Source: a virus
IMG/VR virus record: IMGVR_UViG_3300037882_000611
Coordinates: 1 to 42,722 of that record
Direction: 5' to 3' (one strand)
Length of the DNA: 42,722 bases
Positions 2,876-40,962 of this stretch are shown here, in pieces (positions within the stretch are counted from its first letter, which is position 1; each line of letters starts with the position of its first letter). Below the pieces are notes generated by a model, which worked only from the letters and a program-made list of their open reading frames with translations, was not told the DNA's origin and searched no databases. Position numbers and translations under genes: made by a program.

Positions 2876-3427
2876 TTAAGCCTCACATTTTTTCAGTAAT
2901 GCGCAAAGTTCTTCCTTTTGATCCTCGCGTACTTTTTGCCGAGCATAAGCAGCATCAGCAGCAGCAGCAGCAGCATAAGCAGCAGCAGCAGCATAAGCAG
3001 CATAAGCAGCAGCAGCAGCATAAGCAGCAGCATAAGCAGCATAAGCAGCATAAGCAGCATCAGCATCAGCAGCAGCAGCAGCAGCAGCAGCATCAGCAGC
3101 ATTTTTTCTTGCTTCTTTTAATTCATCTATTGTAGCTTCACCGTTTGCAAATTTTTCAGCAACTTCTATTGCTACTTTAGACCTTTCGTCTTTTAATAAA
3201 TGCTCAACTTGCCTAGCGCAAAATATAGCAAATAACCTTTTTTCCTTATCAAAACCATCTACCGCTCTAAAACACCATAAAGTGTCATTTAAATCGTTCG
3301 CTTCTAAAATAGTTAATAATGACAAATTTTCATCATCAGCTTCAGTTTTACCTAAAAAAGTTAATAATGTCTTCCAGCCTGAAGTGCAAGGTGAACATGC
3401 TCGAATTTTATTTAACGTAGTTTTCAT
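2876..3427 (-). CDS. Ala/Tyr-repeat protein of the Imm-5-like (putative immunity protein-like) family
   Basis: 183 aa. Residues 1-105 are a helical domain (KIRACSPCTSGWKTLL near the start, LFAIFCARQVEHLLKDERS in the middle) matching a family often labelled putative immunity protein and common in phages. About 50 residues of almost pure Ala with regularly placed Tyr and Asp follow, then a charged tail (QKVREDQKEELCALLKKCEA). The repeat is coded by GCT with TAT and GAT codons and shows on DNA as a trinucleotide tract. ATG follows GGGGGTAC. A TTGAC-N6-GTCAA dyad lies 42-58 bases upstream, so this gene may begin a sub-operon. Its function in phages is unknown; the immunity label should not be read as evidence. 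Confidence 0.65.
   Translation of the reverse strand: MKTTLNKIRACSPCTSGWKTLLTFLGKTEADDENLSLLTILEANDLNDTLWCFRAVDGFDKEKRLFAIFCARQVEHLLKDERSKVAIEVAEKFANGEATIDELKEARKNAADAAAAAAAADADAAYAAYAAYAAAYAAAAAYAAYAAAAAYAAAAAADAAYARQKVREDQKEELCALLKKCEA
2941..3100. repeat. Trinucleotide (GCA/GCT)n-type tract
   Basis: About 160 bases of GCA units with interspersed TAA and TCA units on the plus strand, read on the minus strand as Ala (GCT) with Tyr (TAT) and Asp (GAT). It is coding sequence of the Ala/Tyr-repeat gene. It also keeps a Gln/His frame and a Ser/Ile frame open on the other strand, which are artefacts. Such tracts are prone to slippage in whole-codon steps. Confidence 0.9.
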
Positions 3428-14856: not shown

Positions 14857-14892
14857 GTTAACCCCTCATTAATTAGTAACAGAGGGGTTAAC
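14857..14892 (+). promoter_or_regulatory. Hairpin sequestering the ribosome-binding site of the 14893 gene
   Basis: GTTAACCCCTC (14857-14867) and GAGGGGTTAAC (14882-14892) form a perfect 11-bp stem with a 14-base loop, directly followed by ATG. The right arm contains the ribosome-binding site GAGGGG. There is no T tract, so it is not a terminator. It could reduce translation until melted or bound. Confidence 0.6.
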
Positions 14893-15108
14893 ATGAAATA
14901 TATTTTATTAGGATTATTATTAACTATATCCACGGGTTTAAATGCTAAAGCTTTTGATTTTATATTAGATAGTAAACTGTGGATATGTTCACAATATGCG
15001 GTAAGTTTTAAATGGGAAAAAGTTAAAGTTGATCATAGTAATGTGTATCAATACTATATCTCTAAAACTAAAAGCTGCGTTAAATATGAAAGAGTAGGCA
15101 GTGTATGA
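14893..15108 (+). CDS. Small exported protein, 71 aa
   Basis: A signal peptide is visible: MKYILLGLLLTISTGLNAKA, with possible cleavage after NAKA. The mature part (about 50 residues) has two cysteines (WICSQY and KSCVKY) that could form a disulfide in the periplasm. No family is recognised. A phage early-region exported protein could act in superinfection exclusion or envelope modification; this is speculation from location. Its ribosome-binding site lies in a strong hairpin, and its stop overlaps the next ATG. Confidence 0.6.
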   Translation: MKYILLGLLLTISTGLNAKAFDFILDSKLWICSQYAVSFKWEKVKVDHSNVYQYYISKTKSCVKYERVGSV

Positions 15109-30829: not shown

Positions 30830-30994
30830 ATGAACAACGTATGCAAGAAAACAAATAAAGAAGTTGAACCGGGTAGCTATTGGCACACAATGTATCTTGC
30901 TGAAAAAGCACGTGCTGAAGATGCCGAAAAAGAACTTAAAAGGATTAGTGATATTTTAGCTGCTAAATATGGAATTAATACGGAGAGTTTATAA
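30830..30994 (+). CDS. Small coiled-coil protein, 54 aa
   Basis: ATG at 30830 follows AGGGG, at slightly long spacing. The second half is a charged helix (MYLAEKARAEDAEKELKRIS). The segment YWHTMYLAEKARAEDAE resembles YWQNKYAEEKRRADDLQ of the next protein, so the two are probably related or interact. Transcribed rightward from the promoter at 30771, against the flanking late genes. Function unknown. Confidence 0.6.
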   Translation: MNNVCKKTNKEVEPGSYWHTMYLAEKARAEDAEKELKRISDILAAKYGINTESL

Positions 30995-30995
30995 A

Positions 30996-31409
30996 ATGGA
31001 TAAGATTAATACTGTTGAATACTGGCAAAATAAATACGCTGAAGAAAAACGACGCGCTGACGATTTACAAAAACAAGTTGATCAATTCAATACAGATATT
31101 GCAAGTTTTAACACTTACCTTAGCGGTGTATATAAACCGTTAGAATTTTCAAAAGAAGTTGAAGAGTTACTTAAAAACGCGCCACCTTCAGCAGAAGATT
31201 TATTACGTCAATTACTTTCAAAATTCACTATAGATACTAATGAGAGTTCATTTTTTCCAGGCATAAACGTTTCTTTTAGAGAAGATGTAACTATTGCCGA
31301 TTTATTAGGTGAAGATTTTGAAGTTTTATTATTACCATACTTAAATGAAGATGATGCTAAAAGATTACAAACCGTCATTGACAAACGCAACGCAACCAAT
31401 AATACTTAA
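30996..31409 (+). CDS. Coiled-coil protein, 137 aa
   Basis: Start at ATG 30996, behind GGAG; the open frame upstream overlaps the previous gene and lacks a signal. Residues 8-40 form a coiled coil (YAEEKRRADDLQKQVDQFNT), followed by an acidic helical domain ending in a charged stretch. No family is recognised. It forms a unit with the 54-aa gene, with its own promoter and terminator, typical of a moron-type insertion. Candidates are a regulator or host-interaction protein; none is supported directly. Confidence 0.6.
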   Translation: MDKINTVEYWQNKYAEEKRRADDLQKQVDQFNTDIASFNTYLSGVYKPLEFSKEVEELLKNAPPSAEDLLRQLLSKFTIDTNESSFFPGINVSFREDVTIADLLGEDFEVLLLPYLNEDDAKRLQTVIDKRNATNNT

Positions 31410-31480: not shown

Positions 31481-31508
31481 AACCCCCTTACGGGGGTTTT
31501 CTTATTTA
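31481..31508 (+). terminator. Rho-independent terminator between converging genes
   Basis: AACCCCC (31481-31487), loop TTAC, GGGGGTT (31492-31498), then TTCTTATTT. It ends the rightward two-gene unit. In the other direction the tail is TTATTTAGTT, so it may also act, less well, on the leftward SGNH transcript. Confidence 0.8.
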
Positions 31509-32867
31509 TATGATTGAAAATAGATTGAATATAGTTTTAGCAACGTCTTGGTATCCCACTGGTTTAGGATGTATCGTGGTATCACCGTACCATGCAATCC
31601 CTAATGGGTCGGGGGATTGCCATTTTTGCCAGACGTCAACTAAAGCTACTCCAAATTGAAGTGAAGTATTATAGTAACATTGAATATACTGATTCTGCAC
31701 AGCCGTAGGGATTAGAGAGTTAGCCGTAGGTACGGGAGTTACTAAAATTACATCAGTACCTTGAGTCAATAATTGTAAAACTAAAGCGTTCAAATTAGCT
31801 TGAAACGCTACAACCGAACTACCCTGTAACCAATCATTAATACCCAAATTAATGATAACAAAATTAGGTTTAACTGTAGCTTGCTCTAAAGTTACGTTAG
31901 CATTCCAATTATTTGCCCGATCTAAGAAATAATCGAGTTTTCTACCGCCAACACCGCAGTTTAATAAGTTAACCGATTTAGCGGTATTGTTATAAGCCGA
32001 CATCCCTACAATCGCAAGTGTATTACCATTAGCATTATTTTTTTGCACTGTCCAAACGTTGCTAATGAGCGAAGGTGCAACAGCGGTCGCCTTTCTCACT
32101 TGATATGTAGCCGTGGCAACAACAGTACCTCCTGAAGCAGCCGCTACAGTACCATCAACCCCGGTTTTAATAGAAATAGCATCATAAGTGACCGCGGGAG
32201 CACCGTCCAAATAGTAAACATCACAAGTGTCCGTAGGAACTGTAGGGGTAAAAGTTATCGCATTCACGTTACTATTATTACGATACAGACTACCCCCAAT
32301 GCCACCTTGGATGAAAATTCCCCAACCTGCACCTAAAGCTACCCTAGGATCAATTACAGGCAATGTAGTACCTTGCTGGTCAGCACCAGCAGAACCCATC
32401 CAATTTTCAGAATTAGCGAGTATCCCAACACCGTTTAATAAATCTTTAAGTCGTGTCACGTATGAGTTAGGTTTCATTGCCGCAATGCTACCGCTGGAAC
32501 CTTGCGTTGTGGAATCACCCAAGAACATCCCAAAACATGTGGTAATTCCGATTTTAGCGTTACTTAACGCAAGCCTTAGGTTTTTATAATTATTGGGGAT
32601 GTAGTTATAAATGAAATTTTTATTAGTCAGGTTTGATATGTCAACAGGATTATTAACCATCGGGTTATCAGAAACATCTTGATAGCTGAGCAATCTAATA
32701 TCCCCATCAACAACAGGCTCATAATTAATGTAGCTTGCATACCACGATTGCCACAGGTCAGCATCTATCTGAGTAGTTGTACCGGCTTTCAAAATTGCAG
32801 TTTTATTGATCGCGTTAATTTGTAAGTCTGTAGTTAAACTTGAAGAAACGTTAGCTTTTAAAGTCAT
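31506..32867 (-). CDS. SGNH/GDSL-type hydrolase in the head-gene cluster
   Basis: 453 aa. Catalytic blocks: FLGDSTTQG (nucleophile Ser119), an NxGVGG-type block II (NCGVGGRKL), block III NLGINDW, and block V DTTIHPKP (Asp429, His433). These esterases remove acyl groups from polysaccharides or lipids. Residues 1-60 carry the W-x2-W domain shared with the genes at 30057 and 30376 (here INKTAILKAGTTTQIDADLW). That may anchor it to the virion. It follows the major capsid gene, and its ribosome-binding site AGAGGAG is in a hairpin switch. A role in deacetylating surface glycan is plausible. Confidence 0.8.
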   Translation of the reverse strand: MTLKANVSSSLTTDLQINAINKTAILKAGTTTQIDADLWQSWYASYINYEPVVDGDIRLLSYQDVSDNPMVNNPVDISNLTNKNFIYNYIPNNYKNLRLALSNAKIGITTCFGMFLGDSTTQGSSGSIAAMKPNSYVTRLKDLLNGVGILANSENWMGSAGADQQGTTLPVIDPRVALGAGWGIFIQGGIGGSLYRNNSNVNAITFTPTVPTDTCDVYYLDGAPAVTYDAISIKTGVDGTVAAASGGTVVATATYQVRKATAVAPSLISNVWTVQKNNANGNTLAIVGMSAYNNTAKSVNLLNCGVGGRKLDYFLDRANNWNANVTLEQATVKPNFVIINLGINDWLQGSSVVAFQANLNALVLQLLTQGTDVILVTPVPTANSLIPTAVQNQYIQCYYNTSLQFGVALVDVWQKWQSPDPLGIAWYGDTTIHPKPVGYQDVAKTIFNLFSII

Positions 32868-32871
32868 GAAA

Positions 32872-32917
32872 AACTCCTCTAATGTGGATGAGTTAGAGGA
32901 GTTAACGTTAACTCCTC
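32872..32917 (-). promoter_or_regulatory. Three-arm RNA switch before the SGNH gene
   Basis: Minus-strand order after the capsid stop: arm C GAGGAGTTAAC (32917-32907), arm B GTTAACTCCTC plus TAA (32906-32893), arm A TTAGAGGAGTT (32882-32872), then the SGNH ATG at 32867. C pairs perfectly with B, a 22-bp palindrome. B pairs perfectly with A over 11 bp, around a 10-base loop. A holds the ribosome-binding site. The two hairpins exclude one another. No T tract follows. Confidence 0.6.
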
Positions 32918-32927
32918 GTTACTTTTA

Positions 32928-33956
32928 TTAAATACCCAACATTTGAGCAATTAAGAACGGTCTATAAATAATCGTACCCCAAGTCCCTTGCGACTTCTTC
33001 TGCTTCCAGTTAGACGACCCTACAACGATTGGGTGAGCACGCATTTTTTCAGTAAACGCAGTATCCGCAGTACGTTGACCACCAACCTCATCAACGATTA
33101 ACTGCATTAACTGCCCTGAAGGGGTCGCATACTCAGGCGCTGTTTTAATCGTTAAATTAGGGAAATTCTTTTTCAAAAGATCCGTTACGTTAACGTTAAA
33201 TTGCGTAGTACCTGTAAGCGCGACTTCAGCAGTGGGTGACATTGCAAGCGTCATTTTACTTTGTAGCGTCACTAAGCCGTTGGCTTGAGCCTGAAGTTGT
33301 CCGAATAACTTTACGATATCCGCATAAACTTCAAGTGCTGTAGCGACACCCCAAGTAGTACCACCAGCCGCTTTAAGTGTCGGTGTAACAGCAGGTAATA
33401 ACGCAGGGTCATTAAGCAACCCGTAGTTCTGCATGTTTGCAACACCATAAAAATAACTCTTGTTTTGAAACTTGTTAAGAGTTAAAGCGCTTGCGATATT
33501 CAAACGGTTAGCCAAATCAATTTTAGCTAAACCTGCCATTTCTAATTCACGCTCACCCCATTGGGTAAAAGTCTCGTAGTGGTAACTTTGACGATGCGGA
33601 AAATTCGTATTAACTCCAGAATTACCGTTTTCGCTGTAATCACCGTAAGACGACGTTTCACCCGTGTATTCAACTACAGGAAATACTGTGGTCAAAGTCG
33701 TCCAATCACCTTTTTTAACTTCTTCACCCACAATTAATGTAGCATTCATAGGTGATACGAGCACTTCAATAAACTTAGGGTCAATGTAAGTAGTCAGAAA
33801 CGCAGGAATACCGCTATTACTTACAGTGACTAAGCCTGGTTGAGCATCTTGAGCAATCAAAAAGTTACTCGCAACATCTTCTGCTTGAAGTTCAACTTGC
33901 GGGTGTCCCATTACGACAATACCCGCCTTGAGCATTAATTTCATTAAATCATTCAT
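32928..33956 (-). CDS. Major capsid protein (DUF2184-like)
   Basis: 342 aa. GHPQVELQAEDVASNFLIAQ, then TVFPVVEYTGETSSYGDYSE, YETFTQWGERELEMAGLAKI and WGTIIYRPFLIAQMLGI are the pattern of DUF2184 capsid proteins with the HK97 fold. GGAG precedes the ATG at good spacing. It lies between the cement protein and SGNH genes. The absence of a long N-terminal scaffold region fits a separate scaffold or protease protein (35075). Confidence 0.85.
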   Translation of the reverse strand: MNDLMKLMLKAGIVVMGHPQVELQAEDVASNFLIAQDAQPGLVTVSNSGIPAFLTTYIDPKFIEVLVSPMNATLIVGEEVKKGDWTTLTTVFPVVEYTGETSSYGDYSENGNSGVNTNFPHRQSYHYETFTQWGERELEMAGLAKIDLANRLNIASALTLNKFQNKSYFYGVANMQNYGLLNDPALLPAVTPTLKAAGGTTWGVATALEVYADIVKLFGQLQAQANGLVTLQSKMTLAMSPTAEVALTGTTQFNVNVTDLLKKNFPNLTIKTAPEYATPSGQLMQLIVDEVGGQRTADTAFTEKMRAHPIVVGSSNWKQKKSQGTWGTIIYRPFLIAQMLGI

Positions 33957-37059: not shown

Positions 37060-38470
37060 TATCTTCACCCTCATCTTCTAAAGCTTCAGGTATTTTAGTT
37101 ACGTCGATACCGTTAAAACCGCTATTTTTATTATGTGCTAAATTTTCCCTCGCTTCCTCTTGACTTATAACTTGAGCTGTTACGTAACTTGTAATGCTCG
37201 CAGCATCTTTAGCCCTAACTTCTGCTTTTTCTACTTCAGTTAATTGCCCCAACGGTCTAAATTTAAAATCAATGCTAGGATCAATTTCACCCCATAAATT
37301 TAATTGAGCTAGCTTTAATATAGTTTCTATAGGTTTGCGCCAAAAGGCTTTTTGTTGTGAAGCAATCCAATCGTAAAAGACTCTTATTTCACTATCGGAA
37401 CTAGCATTTAAACCACCTGGGCTAATACCTGTGAGTATGATTGCTGGCATTCTGGAAACTGAGCACATATGCTCTTGTGCTTGCGCCTGAAGCGCATCTA
37501 AGCCACTTAAAGGAACATTTTGTTGTACAAGTTCTTCAGTATCTTTATCAAGTAGCATCAGCCCTTTATTTGACCGCATTAATGTAAATAACTTTGCGCG
37601 TGCAAATAAATTATCACCGTTGTCAGCACCCATTATAGTCTGACTCATCGCAGTCTTTAGACCTGTAGTGCTGAAGTTATTCACTAAATCGGCAACTGAT
37701 TGCTGAGTACGTAACCAGTTATCAACGTAACGCTCGGCTAATTGATAAAGACTGATACCGCCAAAGTTAAATGCGGGTTTTAAAATATCTGACAATTCAT
37801 TAGTTACTACATTTAATAAACGACTTGAATCAACTTTCTTACCCATCACATACCAGTTAGACGGCTTGTAAAAATCGGGTGAAAGTGGGTCAAGTGAATT
37901 ATAAGCCGATGGGGTCATCCAAGTAGCTTCCACATTGCAAATGCGCCTAAAGCTACCCTGTTTAACCGTCTTTGCATTAATAATTAACGGTACTTCTCGA
38001 TCATTTCCGACATCTAAAAAGATATTAGACATACCTTGAGAGGCATCTAACTCAACAGCTCTACGAATAACGTTTTGCACATTAAGTCGTTGGAACTCTT
38101 CTTCAATTTCTGTAAGTTTCTTAGAAACTGATTCATCAGAGTTACTACTAACAAATTCAATCCATTCTCGGGTCATTTCACCACTTAAAGCATTTGACAT
38201 CGCTCTAAATTCTGCGCGTGTCCCAAGTTGCGCTAGGTATTGATAACCAGGAAAGCCAGCGCCAGGATGTAAGCCATTTAGGTAATTGCAATAATCACCC
38301 CCGAAAGCGTAATCCATAGCTAATACGGGTGCTGTAGCGCCCTCAGGCACCACCCCAGGTAAGAACTTTAACCGTTGAAACGGATAGAAATATGGATCCC
38401 TATCGGCAACTTGCAATTCTGCTTTATTCGCTGCTAACTTCAATCCGTTTGTCATAGTTTCTTCAGTCAT
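37019..38470 (-). CDS. Portal protein (DUF1073-like)
   Basis: 483 aa. ATG at 38470 overlaps the terminase TGA (TGATG) with AGGGG upstream. Features: LSGEMTREWIEFVSSNSD, VELDASQGMSNIFLDVGND, a YVDNWLRTQQSVADLVNNFS helix, and MPAIILTGISPGGLNASSDS with RVFYDWIASQQKAFWRKPIE, the DUF1073 portal signature. The C-terminus is very acidic (DEGEDNEEKENDTNN). It forms the DNA entry pore. Confidence 0.85.
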   Translation of the reverse strand: MTEETMTNGLKLAANKAELQVADRDPYFYPFQRLKFLPGVVPEGATAPVLAMDYAFGGDYCNYLNGLHPGAGFPGYQYLAQLGTRAEFRAMSNALSGEMTREWIEFVSSNSDESVSKKLTEIEEEFQRLNVQNVIRRAVELDASQGMSNIFLDVGNDREVPLIINAKTVKQGSFRRICNVEATWMTPSAYNSLDPLSPDFYKPSNWYVMGKKVDSSRLLNVVTNELSDILKPAFNFGGISLYQLAERYVDNWLRTQQSVADLVNNFSTTGLKTAMSQTIMGADNGDNLFARAKLFTLMRSNKGLMLLDKDTEELVQQNVPLSGLDALQAQAQEHMCSVSRMPAIILTGISPGGLNASSDSEIRVFYDWIASQQKAFWRKPIETILKLAQLNLWGEIDPSIDFKFRPLGQLTEVEKAEVRAKDAASITSYVTAQVISQEEARENLAHNKNSGFNGIDVTKIPEALEDEGEDNEEKENDTNNKRE

Positions 38471-40962
38471 CAATAACCCCTCATAGCCCTAAGTAACGCT
38501 TCTTCACTAATCGCTAATATACCAAACAACGGATACAAATGTTTTAACGCTTGTGTTGTAGCGTCAACTTGATCGTCATGTGCCGCCGTAGGAAACGTTA
38601 CCAACTCAGCGATATATTGAACAACCCACGGTGCAATATCTTTATGGGGTAGGAACACGTTGCCTGCTTCCCACGGTGAAGTCACCGCATGTGCTCTAGC
38701 CTGTTTAGATTCTGTAGGAACTACCGCAATTAAGCAAGGTACAACCTTTTTAAGTACGTCAATAATTGCAGCACCATTAGCTTTTTCTTCAATCAGTATT
38801 TCGTTAGCACCCCACTTCTTACGTAACTTAACGACACTTTCGACTGTTTTAGTAAAGCTCATGCGTTCGCGTATTTGATCAAGTAAGTAACTGTTAGCCC
38901 CACGCTTACCCCACACTTGCCCAACGACATAATCGGTACCGTCAGTATCTTTAAAAGTACAATCCCATGAGTGAATAATTTTATCGAATTTAGCGGGCAA
39001 GTCTTTAGGTAAGTAGTATTGCGCGAACTCTTCTTTAAAAATATTACCGTCGATATTTTTAGGTGATTGCTGGTAAATTGCTGACCACCAGTAATTACTT
39101 AAAAGCTTCTTAGTCTCTTTCAGTTTCGTTAATGAGTGTAATTGCGGTACTAAAGCACCTTCAGATAAATCGCGATTATAACCAACTTCATCAGGTGAGT
39201 TAATTGCAGGAAACTTAAGCACAATTAATCGAGGATCACCTTTAAACTCGGCGATAATGCGACCAAGTAAATCATCCTCAGCCCACTGAGTAGCCATTAT
39301 TATCTGACCACTACATTCACTCATGCGCGTTGTGAATACCGTCTGGTACCAATCCCAATGGGATTTTTTAGTAGTTTCTGATAATGCTTCCTGCTGATTC
39401 TTTATCGGGTCATCAATAATACCAATATCTAAGGGTCGTCCTGTAAACCCAGCACCAATACCGCGCCCGATGTAACCACCTGAACCATTAGGATTATTAA
39501 ATTCGTCAGTACGGTTAACGTCGTATTTAGTATTACGATTCTTAAGTAAAGGAAATAACCGCAAGTGCTCAGGACTAGCAATTGTACGCCTGACATCTTT
39601 AGCGAAAGATTGAACCAGGTCATCAGCGTAACTTGCCGCGCCTACTTTCCAATCCGGAAATTTACCTTGTATGTAAGCAGGCAGCTTACGAGAAACTATT
39701 TCGCTATTATGAGTTGGTATCATAGTGCGACCAACTCTATAAATACCATCATCAGCTTCAACTTGGATACAATTACCTTGCTTACCCCAATCACCTAAAG
39801 TAATTGATTTAATTGCTATTTTACGTTTTGGTGTAAGTATCTTTATTTTTTTACGTTCTAACCTGCAAGGTATATCCACATTGGGATTAAACCCAATTAC
39901 GTAATATTCTTTTTTACCTTGAATACCGCTTGAAGATAACTTAGGTTGCTCTTTAACTAAAGTATACCTCCAGCCGAAAGTTGATATTAAATCGCAAAAC
40001 GAATCAGCTAAATCTTTTTCGGCAGTAGTAAATACACAACGTCCGTTTTTTTGATAAACGTAGCCGTCAGTATCTATTAGCCCTGCAAGTAATTCTAACC
40101 TTTGAGTAATTGAAGCAGTCAGGTATACATCAGGTATACGTTTAGCTTTCCAGTCACCTTGATATGAATGTAAGTTAGCTTTTTTTAAATCAGCCCATAA
40201 TTTATCAAAAGAATAACTATAAACACCCGTATCTTTATGTATCCATACGCTACGTAAAGGATACCCATCATTAATGATACTAAAAATTATATCTAAATCA
40301 TATTTGTCACCGCTTATAACAGGTTTTACTCTAGTGCCATCACCTAACCACACACCTAAAGTATAAGGTTTAATTGGTAATTCAATATCATTGTTAATAA
40401 TTGGTGTTACGTCAGGTAATTGGTAAACATATCTAGATCCGCGCTCACCTACAGTACCTAAAAATAATGCATTTTCCCTTTTGTTATCTTTACCTAACTT
40501 AAGCATATCTTGTGTTGAAATAACAACATTACGTTTTTTATCTCTACTGTAGACTTCCCATAAATGATTACGATGACAATAAATAATCTCACCGTTAGTA
40601 AATTCAACTTTACAATCAGATACGCTTTTTTCAGATAAAGCTACTATTCGAGTGGGGTTACCGTCTTTACCATAAACATAATCATTTACTTCAAGTTGAC
40701 CGTGAGTTTTCCAACCTTTTGTTGTTAAAACGTCAATATCATCTGCTATCTGCTTACCGTGCTGCGGGGGGGCGCATAAAACCAATATAGGTCTAATGCC
40801 AGCCTGAACTTGTGATAAAAATAAATCAATGGACGCACAAACAACTTCCGAAAATACAGAAGTCTTATAATTTGGGTTTGTATAGTTAACATAAGCCGCT
40901 AGGCTACTCTTAGCAGCCCGACGTCTTAATAGTTCACTAGCAGCTTCACTGGGGGTTATCAC
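38470..40962 (-). CDS. Large terminase subunit interrupted by an intein
   Basis: 830 aa, of which residues 71-419 are an intein; the spliced terminase would be 481 aa, a usual size. Exteins: Walker A is split as CAPPQHGK | SEIVSRK. Walker B is IGIIDDP. The nuclease motifs are HSWDCTF (Asp), ILIEEKANG and AAHDDQVDATTQAL. It pumps DNA into the prohead and cuts it. GTG start at 40962 with no clear ribosome-binding site, overlapping the small subunit gene by 17 bases. The protein is inactive until the intein is removed, since the break is inside the ATP-binding loop. Confidence 0.9.
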   Translation of the reverse strand: MITPSEAASELLRRRAAKSSLAAYVNYTNPNYKTSVFSEVVCASIDLFLSQVQAGIRPILVLCAPPQHGKQIADDIDVLTTKGWKTHGQLEVNDYVYGKDGNPTRIVALSEKSVSDCKVEFTNGEIIYCHRNHLWEVYSRDKKRNVVISTQDMLKLGKDNKRENALFLGTVGERGSRYVYQLPDVTPIINNDIELPIKPYTLGVWLGDGTRVKPVISGDKYDLDIIFSIINDGYPLRSVWIHKDTGVYSYSFDKLWADLKKANLHSYQGDWKAKRIPDVYLTASITQRLELLAGLIDTDGYVYQKNGRCVFTTAEKDLADSFCDLISTFGWRYTLVKEQPKLSSSGIQGKKEYYVIGFNPNVDIPCRLERKKIKILTPKRKIAIKSITLGDWGKQGNCIQVEADDGIYRVGRTMIPTHNSEIVSRKLPAYIQGKFPDWKVGAASYADDLVQSFAKDVRRTIASPEHLRLFPLLKNRNTKYDVNRTDEFNNPNGSGGYIGRGIGAGFTGRPLDIGIIDDPIKNQQEALSETTKKSHWDWYQTVFTTRMSECSGQIIMATQWAEDDLLGRIIAEFKGDPRLIVLKFPAINSPDEVGYNRDLSEGALVPQLHSLTKLKETKKLLSNYWWSAIYQQSPKNIDGNIFKEEFAQYYLPKDLPAKFDKIIHSWDCTFKDTDGTDYVVGQVWGKRGANSYLLDQIRERMSFTKTVESVVKLRKKWGANEILIEEKANGAAIIDVLKKVVPCLIAVVPTESKQARAHAVTSPWEAGNVFLPHKDIAPWVVQYIAELVTFPTAAHDDQVDATTQALKHLYPLFGILAISEEALLRAMRGY
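39706..40752 (-). mobile_element. Intein with LAGLIDADG endonuclease in the Walker A loop of the large terminase
   Basis: 349 aa in frame. It begins QIADDIDVLTTKGWKTHGQL, so residue 1 is Gln rather than Cys or Ser. Block B YCHRNHLWEV has a Trp. Endonuclease blocks are LGVWLGDGTR and LLAGLIDTDGYV. Block F begins CIQVEADDG with Cys, and the end is IPTHN followed by the Ser of the extein. Trp (intein residue 65), Cys (328) and Thr (347) fit the class 3 signature, and His/Asn are at 348-349. Confidence 0.85.

Follow-up and report, generated by a model that had tools for sequence, protein, structure and literature searches.

Phages need hundreds of copies of their capsid protein and few copies of most neighbouring proteins. 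In phage T7, a terminator lies right after the capsid gene and is read through for genes 11 and 12 (PMC5592923). Like this terminator, T-phi, which follows gene 10, and like the post-capsid terminators of the relatives of the virus studied here, the element that we describe combines a hairpin with a T run directly after the capsid gene, and the next gene would be reached by read-through only. It differs from them in its lower terminator score, in a 3′ arm that is also the SD of the next gene, and in a competing hairpin upstream; T-phi, in addition, acts on phage polymerase, unlike the element here.

The trp and pyrBI leaders also resemble the present locus, in that a middle arm is shared by competing folds and the upstream arm may be under ribosome control. 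Unlike trp and pyrBI, our locus has no leader peptide with regulatory codons, and the entire capsid gene would take the part of the “leader”; its arrangement is not conserved, and the effect of the ribosome would oppose ordinary coupling. Translational coupling through hairpins near stop codons has been reviewed (PMC12548453), and in f1 VII-IX, MS2 coat-lysis and rpmI-rplT, as here, the downstream ribosome-binding site (RBS) is enclosed by a hairpin close to the stop codon of the preceding gene; the 60-nt gap at our locus is comparable to the +52 nt of rpmI-rplT. In contrast to these three systems, where upstream ribosomes break the hairpin, upstream ribosomes here would favour the hairpin that hides the RBS.

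The window analysed here, a stretch of 42,722 nucleotides of viral DNA, carries a major capsid protein gene followed by a gene for an SGNH hydrolase. The intergenic gap of 60 nt between them holds all three arms (A, B and C) of the element:

32928–33956, minus strand: gene of the major capsid protein (342 aa; matches the major head protein family PHROG 264 with E 2.7e-77)
32907–32917, minus strand: arm C, GAGGAGTTAAC, SD-like, but not followed by a start codon (-8.4 kcal/mol when paired with the 16S 3′ end)
32893–32906, minus strand: arm B, GTTAACTCCTCTAA, the anti-SD arm common to both hairpins (from the sequence and the folds)
32887–32894, minus strand: imperfect extra anti-SD, AACTCATC, partner of A once C-B has formed (from the MFE structure and the repeat)
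32872–32882, minus strand: arm A, TTAGAGGAGTT, the SGNH SD, which also supplies the 3′ side of the terminator-like hairpin B-A (-8.6 kcal/mol when paired with the 16S 3′ end)
32869–32873, minus strand: five-T run, straight after the GAGGAG stem and ahead of C-ATG (from the sequence; terminator score d = -9.4)
32847–32856, minus strand: start of the SGNH coding sequence, AGCTAACGTT, able to pair with a freed arm C (from the repeat and the folds)
31506–32867, minus strand: SGNH/GDSL hydrolase gene, 453 aa (Pfam PF13472, E 4.8e-17)
31481–31498, no strand assigned: terminator-like hairpin AACCCCC-N4-GGGGGTT ending the SGNH unit, with a T-rich tail on the plus strand (from the sequence)

The capsid protein also matches PDB entries 8frs (“Major structural protein”) and 9b40 (“gp26 Major capsid”), with E about 1e-18. 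Its TAA stop codon (32930–32928, minus strand) is followed by two further in-frame stops (TAA TAA AAG TAA). Read along the minus-strand RNA, the order is capsid TAA, a 10-nt gap, C, B, a spacer (32892–32883), A, TTTC and the SGNH ATG (32867–32865). The three arms that a preliminary description had placed at 32872–32917 are correct in identity and position, and lie on the minus strand; its assignment of A as the SGNH ribosome-binding site was likewise borne out, since the SD coincides exactly with this arm. The same description had B pairing perfectly with either C or A. The two folds are indeed mutually exclusive, but the palindrome does not yield 11 RNA pairs: C and B make up a perfect 22-nt palindrome without a spacer, which folds as RNA into 9 bp closed by an ACGU loop (-11.6 kcal/mol), while the computed B-A fold has an 11-bp stem and a 10-nt loop (-12.8 kcal/mol). 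Arm B thus takes part in two alternative folds of near-equal energy, as in attenuators with alternative hairpins.

The motif GAGGAGTT occurs at these three places only in the whole window, against an expectation of 0.39, and the three-arm arrangement occurs once within it. When the strand was shuffled with dinucleotide frequencies kept, 12 of 600 shuffles gave a three-arm arrangement of some kind whose stems were 8 bp or longer, and the observed combination of 9 and 11 bp was attained in none. The three-arm RNA element with two competing folds is therefore real. Rfam covariance models gave no match in the window at gathering score, and no phage case with the exact three-arm layout was found in the open-licence literature. 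When viral contigs were scanned for AACTCCTC-N-GAGGAGTT-N-ATG, the matches listed lay mostly within coding sequence, and a single one among those listed had GAGGAGTT upstream, at a 42-aa frame.

Such a palindrome, or the RNA hairpin that it encodes, might also be the binding site of a phage or host regulator. The perfection of the 22-bp palindrome would suit such a role, as would a second hairpin of the window, which has a similar arm, GTTAACCCCTC, and lies over the SD of the gene at 14893. We nevertheless regard a regulator site as highly improbable, given that neither the palindrome (GAGGRGTTAACGTTAACYCCTC) nor a one-letter relative was found in any other contig of the viral collection, that the exact palindrome was found in no contig of the genome collection, and that the two elements of the window align no better than other chance matches.

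The second hairpin itself (14857–14892, plus strand) is a perfect 11-bp stem of -18 kcal/mol (GTTAACCCCTC/GAGGGGTTAAC) covering the SD right before ATG 14893, which starts a 71-aa protein with a signal-peptide-like N-terminus. We rejected it as a second copy of the three-arm element: its alignment scores match those of other chance matches, the likeness is partly forced by the SD, and the wider pattern was found at three unrelated places.

With its 11-bp stem followed by TTTTT(C), B-A has the stem-loop and T run of an intrinsic (Rho-independent) terminator. We scored it with our own implementation of a d'Aubenton-Carafa type of score, for which the usual threshold is 0. B-A with TTTTTC scores d = -9.4, below this threshold, and this terminator-like value was attained by none of 300 random segments of the window. 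The loop is long (10 nt) and the stem is not very G+C-rich. Among 45 relatives, preselected for carrying a hairpin, the median d was 10.2 and the 25th percentile -6.4, and 26 of the 45 scored above 0; B-A falls in the lower part of their range. B-A is a weak candidate terminator, not a convincing one. Because five T follow B-A and relatives share a hairpin, often a terminator, at this place, the element is no less likely to act on transcription than on translation. The preliminary description, which proposed an attenuator-like limit on the hydrolase at the level of translation, is partly supported, by the exclusive folds, the sharp flip between them and the distance from the capsid stop to C-B (both discussed below); it did not note the terminator-like character of B-A.

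In computed ensembles, C-B accounts for a fraction of 0.94–1.00 when the transcript stops at the T run or at the start codon. C-B is dominant just when RNA polymerase would have reached the T run, which speaks against efficient termination as long as C is not blocked. Arm A, which had been described as open whenever C-B forms, is not simply free in this state, because a third, imperfect anti-SD copy in the spacer, AACTCATC, can pair with it; the SD is about 20% unpaired. When about 20 nt or more of SGNH coding sequence is included, the equilibrium shifts toward B-A in all contexts examined at 37 °C: the B-A fraction reaches 0.79–0.96 with short upstream sequence and 0.28–0.61 with 55–115 nt of capsid sequence upstream. 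A freed arm C can pair with AGCTAACGTT in the SGNH coding sequence, which favours B-A. The “off” fold therefore needs no ribosome, as SGNH codons alone move the equilibrium toward it, and the earlier proposal that C-B forms whenever the ribosome is absent is not supported at equilibrium. Across all contexts, 0.00–0.25 of the SGNH SD is unpaired, the predominant fold pairing it, and at 0.07 unpaired it ranks among the least accessible of 49 gene starts.

The balance between the folds is sharp: trimming 1–3 nt of C flips the computed ensemble to B-A, the C-B fraction being 0.99 with the RNA 5′ end at 32917, 0.30 at 32916 and 0.00 at 32914. To pass from C-B to B-A, the RNA must cross a computed barrier of 11.3 kcal/mol, which corresponds to ten to a hundred seconds if 10^6–10^7 attempts per second are assumed. 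Given this barrier and the prevalence of C-B at the T run and start codon, the choice of fold is probably set during transcription.

We propose, with a probability of roughly 0.5, that the element is a post-capsid attenuator or brake, composed of a terminator-like, SD-hiding B-A hairpin and a competing C-B hairpin; most likely, it keeps the SGNH enzyme scarce relative to the capsid. B-A would be a weak intrinsic-terminator-like hairpin whose 3′ arm doubles as the SGNH SD, so that its formation would end some transcripts before SGNH and hide the RBS on those that continue. C-B, the competitor formed first in transcription, would delay or prevent B-A and thereby set the leakiness of the brake. 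The net outcome would be a large drop in expression from the capsid to a hydrolase with a head-protein-like domain, of which presumably few copies are needed. A post-capsid terminator position would now also serve as the RBS of an inserted SGNH gene.

The preliminary description had gone further, with a ribosome-sensing switch in which C is covered by a ribosome ending the capsid gene, B-A takes over and SGNH is off, whereas without a ribosome C-B forms and SGNH is expressed. Such a switch, the reverse of ordinary translational coupling, may act on translation, or on transcription as in attenuators of the pyrBI and trp type. By the +15/+16 toeprint rule, a ribosome with the stop codon in its A site would have its edge at about 32918, adjoining C and not over it. 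Taken alone, this geometry would speak against a ribosome model. In E. coli, however, ribosomes almost fully repress a terminator hairpin 8–9 bp after the stop codon, the sequence decides whether one at 17–18 bp is repressed, and one beyond about 27–30 bp is free of ribosome repression (PMC4824070); over the range of 8–17 bp, terminating ribosomes repressed the hairpin in at least one of two insert series. At our locus, C-B starts 10 nt, within this range, and B-A 24 nt from the capsid stop. The geometry is borderline: the proposed covering of C agrees with the published blocking range, though not with the strict footprint, which ends beside C. In view of these distances, it is possible that a terminating ribosome disfavours C-B more than B-A.

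Occlusion of 1–3 nt of C would suffice to flip the fold, and the barrier is large enough to freeze the fold that forms first, both as a ribosome-sensing switch would have it. On the other hand, B-A itself, at 24 nt, may be partly blocked, A is mainly paired in the “on” state as well, B-A is substantially populated without a ribosome once SGNH codons are present, and the arms are not conserved in the regions from relatives described below. We therefore hold the ribosome-sensing switch to be doubtful. That the element is a sensor of capsid translation, in which heavy translation of the capsid gene shuts the next gene off through a single hairpin acting as terminator and SD cover at once, is in our estimation unlikely. 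If ribosome sensing were true, translational coupling would have a natural inverse here, and the element would offer a compact part with which to control expression ratios.

In viral contigs, relatives of the capsid protein are up to 72% identical to it, and in Aeromonas phages 60%; most carry a hairpin after the capsid gene. A simple rule labelled the hairpins of 27 of 62 distinct IMG/VR post-capsid regions as terminator-like and those of a further 18 as strong (about 45/62 together), a few of the “TERM” labels (e.g. L219, L220, L224 and L225) being doubtful in that the hairpin lies inside the next gene. A post-capsid hairpin is also present in eight of the nine cultured phages examined (Aeromonas 51, 62AhydR11PP, 4_D05, Orimi01, Amjad_SA, Bcep1, Acjo_20 and AP22). 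The best local hairpin in the post-capsid regions of relatives has a median of -20.0 kcal/mol, while control segments have one of -13.1 kcal/mol (p about 2e-17, a value inflated by relatedness). While post-capsid terminators and hairpins are already known, the three-arm version is present in none of the relatives found (0 of 84 post-capsid regions). The conserved pairing by which the preliminary description would have been judged is thus missing from these regions, and there is no covariation because the three-arm form has no relative.

This distribution also bears on a simpler possibility, that of a passive hairpin which does no more than shield or set the 3′ end of the capsid transcript, or act as a weak terminator, with a third arm that is a duplication of GAGGAGTT and with no switching. 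The 18 of 62 relatives whose strong post-capsid hairpin lacks a T tract, the likeness of C and A as copies of one motif and the lack of a three-arm relative are all consistent with it. Nonetheless, the stems are perfect and longer than in the 600 shuffles, and B-A overlies the SD exactly, so that SGNH would be affected whatever the origin of the hairpin; a purely passive role seems quite unlikely to us.

The gene that follows the capsid gene in relatives mainly encodes a PHROG 2085-like protein. In L206, L226 and L232, the gene directly after the capsid (about 25 nt past the stop) starts with MDNFYVYMYLR, and we take it to resemble a GIY-YIG homing endonuclease; its presence in some relatives suggests that the post-capsid place takes up extra genes repeatedly. 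In the window, the SGNH gene, two small plus-strand frames and the terminator-like hairpin at 31481–31498 separate the capsid gene from the PHROG 2085 genes. As relatives mostly have a PHROG 2085-like gene next to the capsid, SGNH appears to be an insertion where other relatives carry other extra genes. The attenuator or brake would then show how a newly inserted gene fits behind the capsid, with an existing hairpin position reused as an RBS.

SGNH residues 15–58 resemble PHROG 2085, a head-region family (hhalign probability 95%), and a single BLASTP comparison of SGNH with the window's own PHROG 2085 copy gave an E value of 1e-5. PHROG 2085-like sequence is seen at the SGNH N-terminus (32867–32657, minus strand) and in two further copies in the window (30690–30376 and 30386–30057, both minus strand). 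SGNH is apparently an enzyme fused to a head-region domain. An SGNH-PHROG 2085 fusion was not found among the fetched relatives, and the SGNH protein was matched neither in phage records nor, by peptide patterns, in the two contig collections. The likeness to PHROG 2085 would fit a virion-bound enzyme made in few copies, as far as can be judged by inference from the sequence. The two small plus-strand frames (30830–31409), flanked by the SGNH unit on one side and the PHROG 2085 genes on the other, have similar starts (YWQNKYAEEKRRADD and YWHTMYLAEKARAED) and run against the late genes.

Two further observations concern other parts of the window. The large terminase gene (38470–40962, minus strand) has an apparent intein in the ATP-binding loop (APPQHGK|Q...HN|SE) with a LAGLIDADG domain. 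The first residue of this intein is Gln, not Cys or Ser, which to us recalls the class 3 inteins of phage terminases. At 2950–3102, a tandem repeat of 9-nt CAGCAGCAT units in 17 copies lies within a coding frame.
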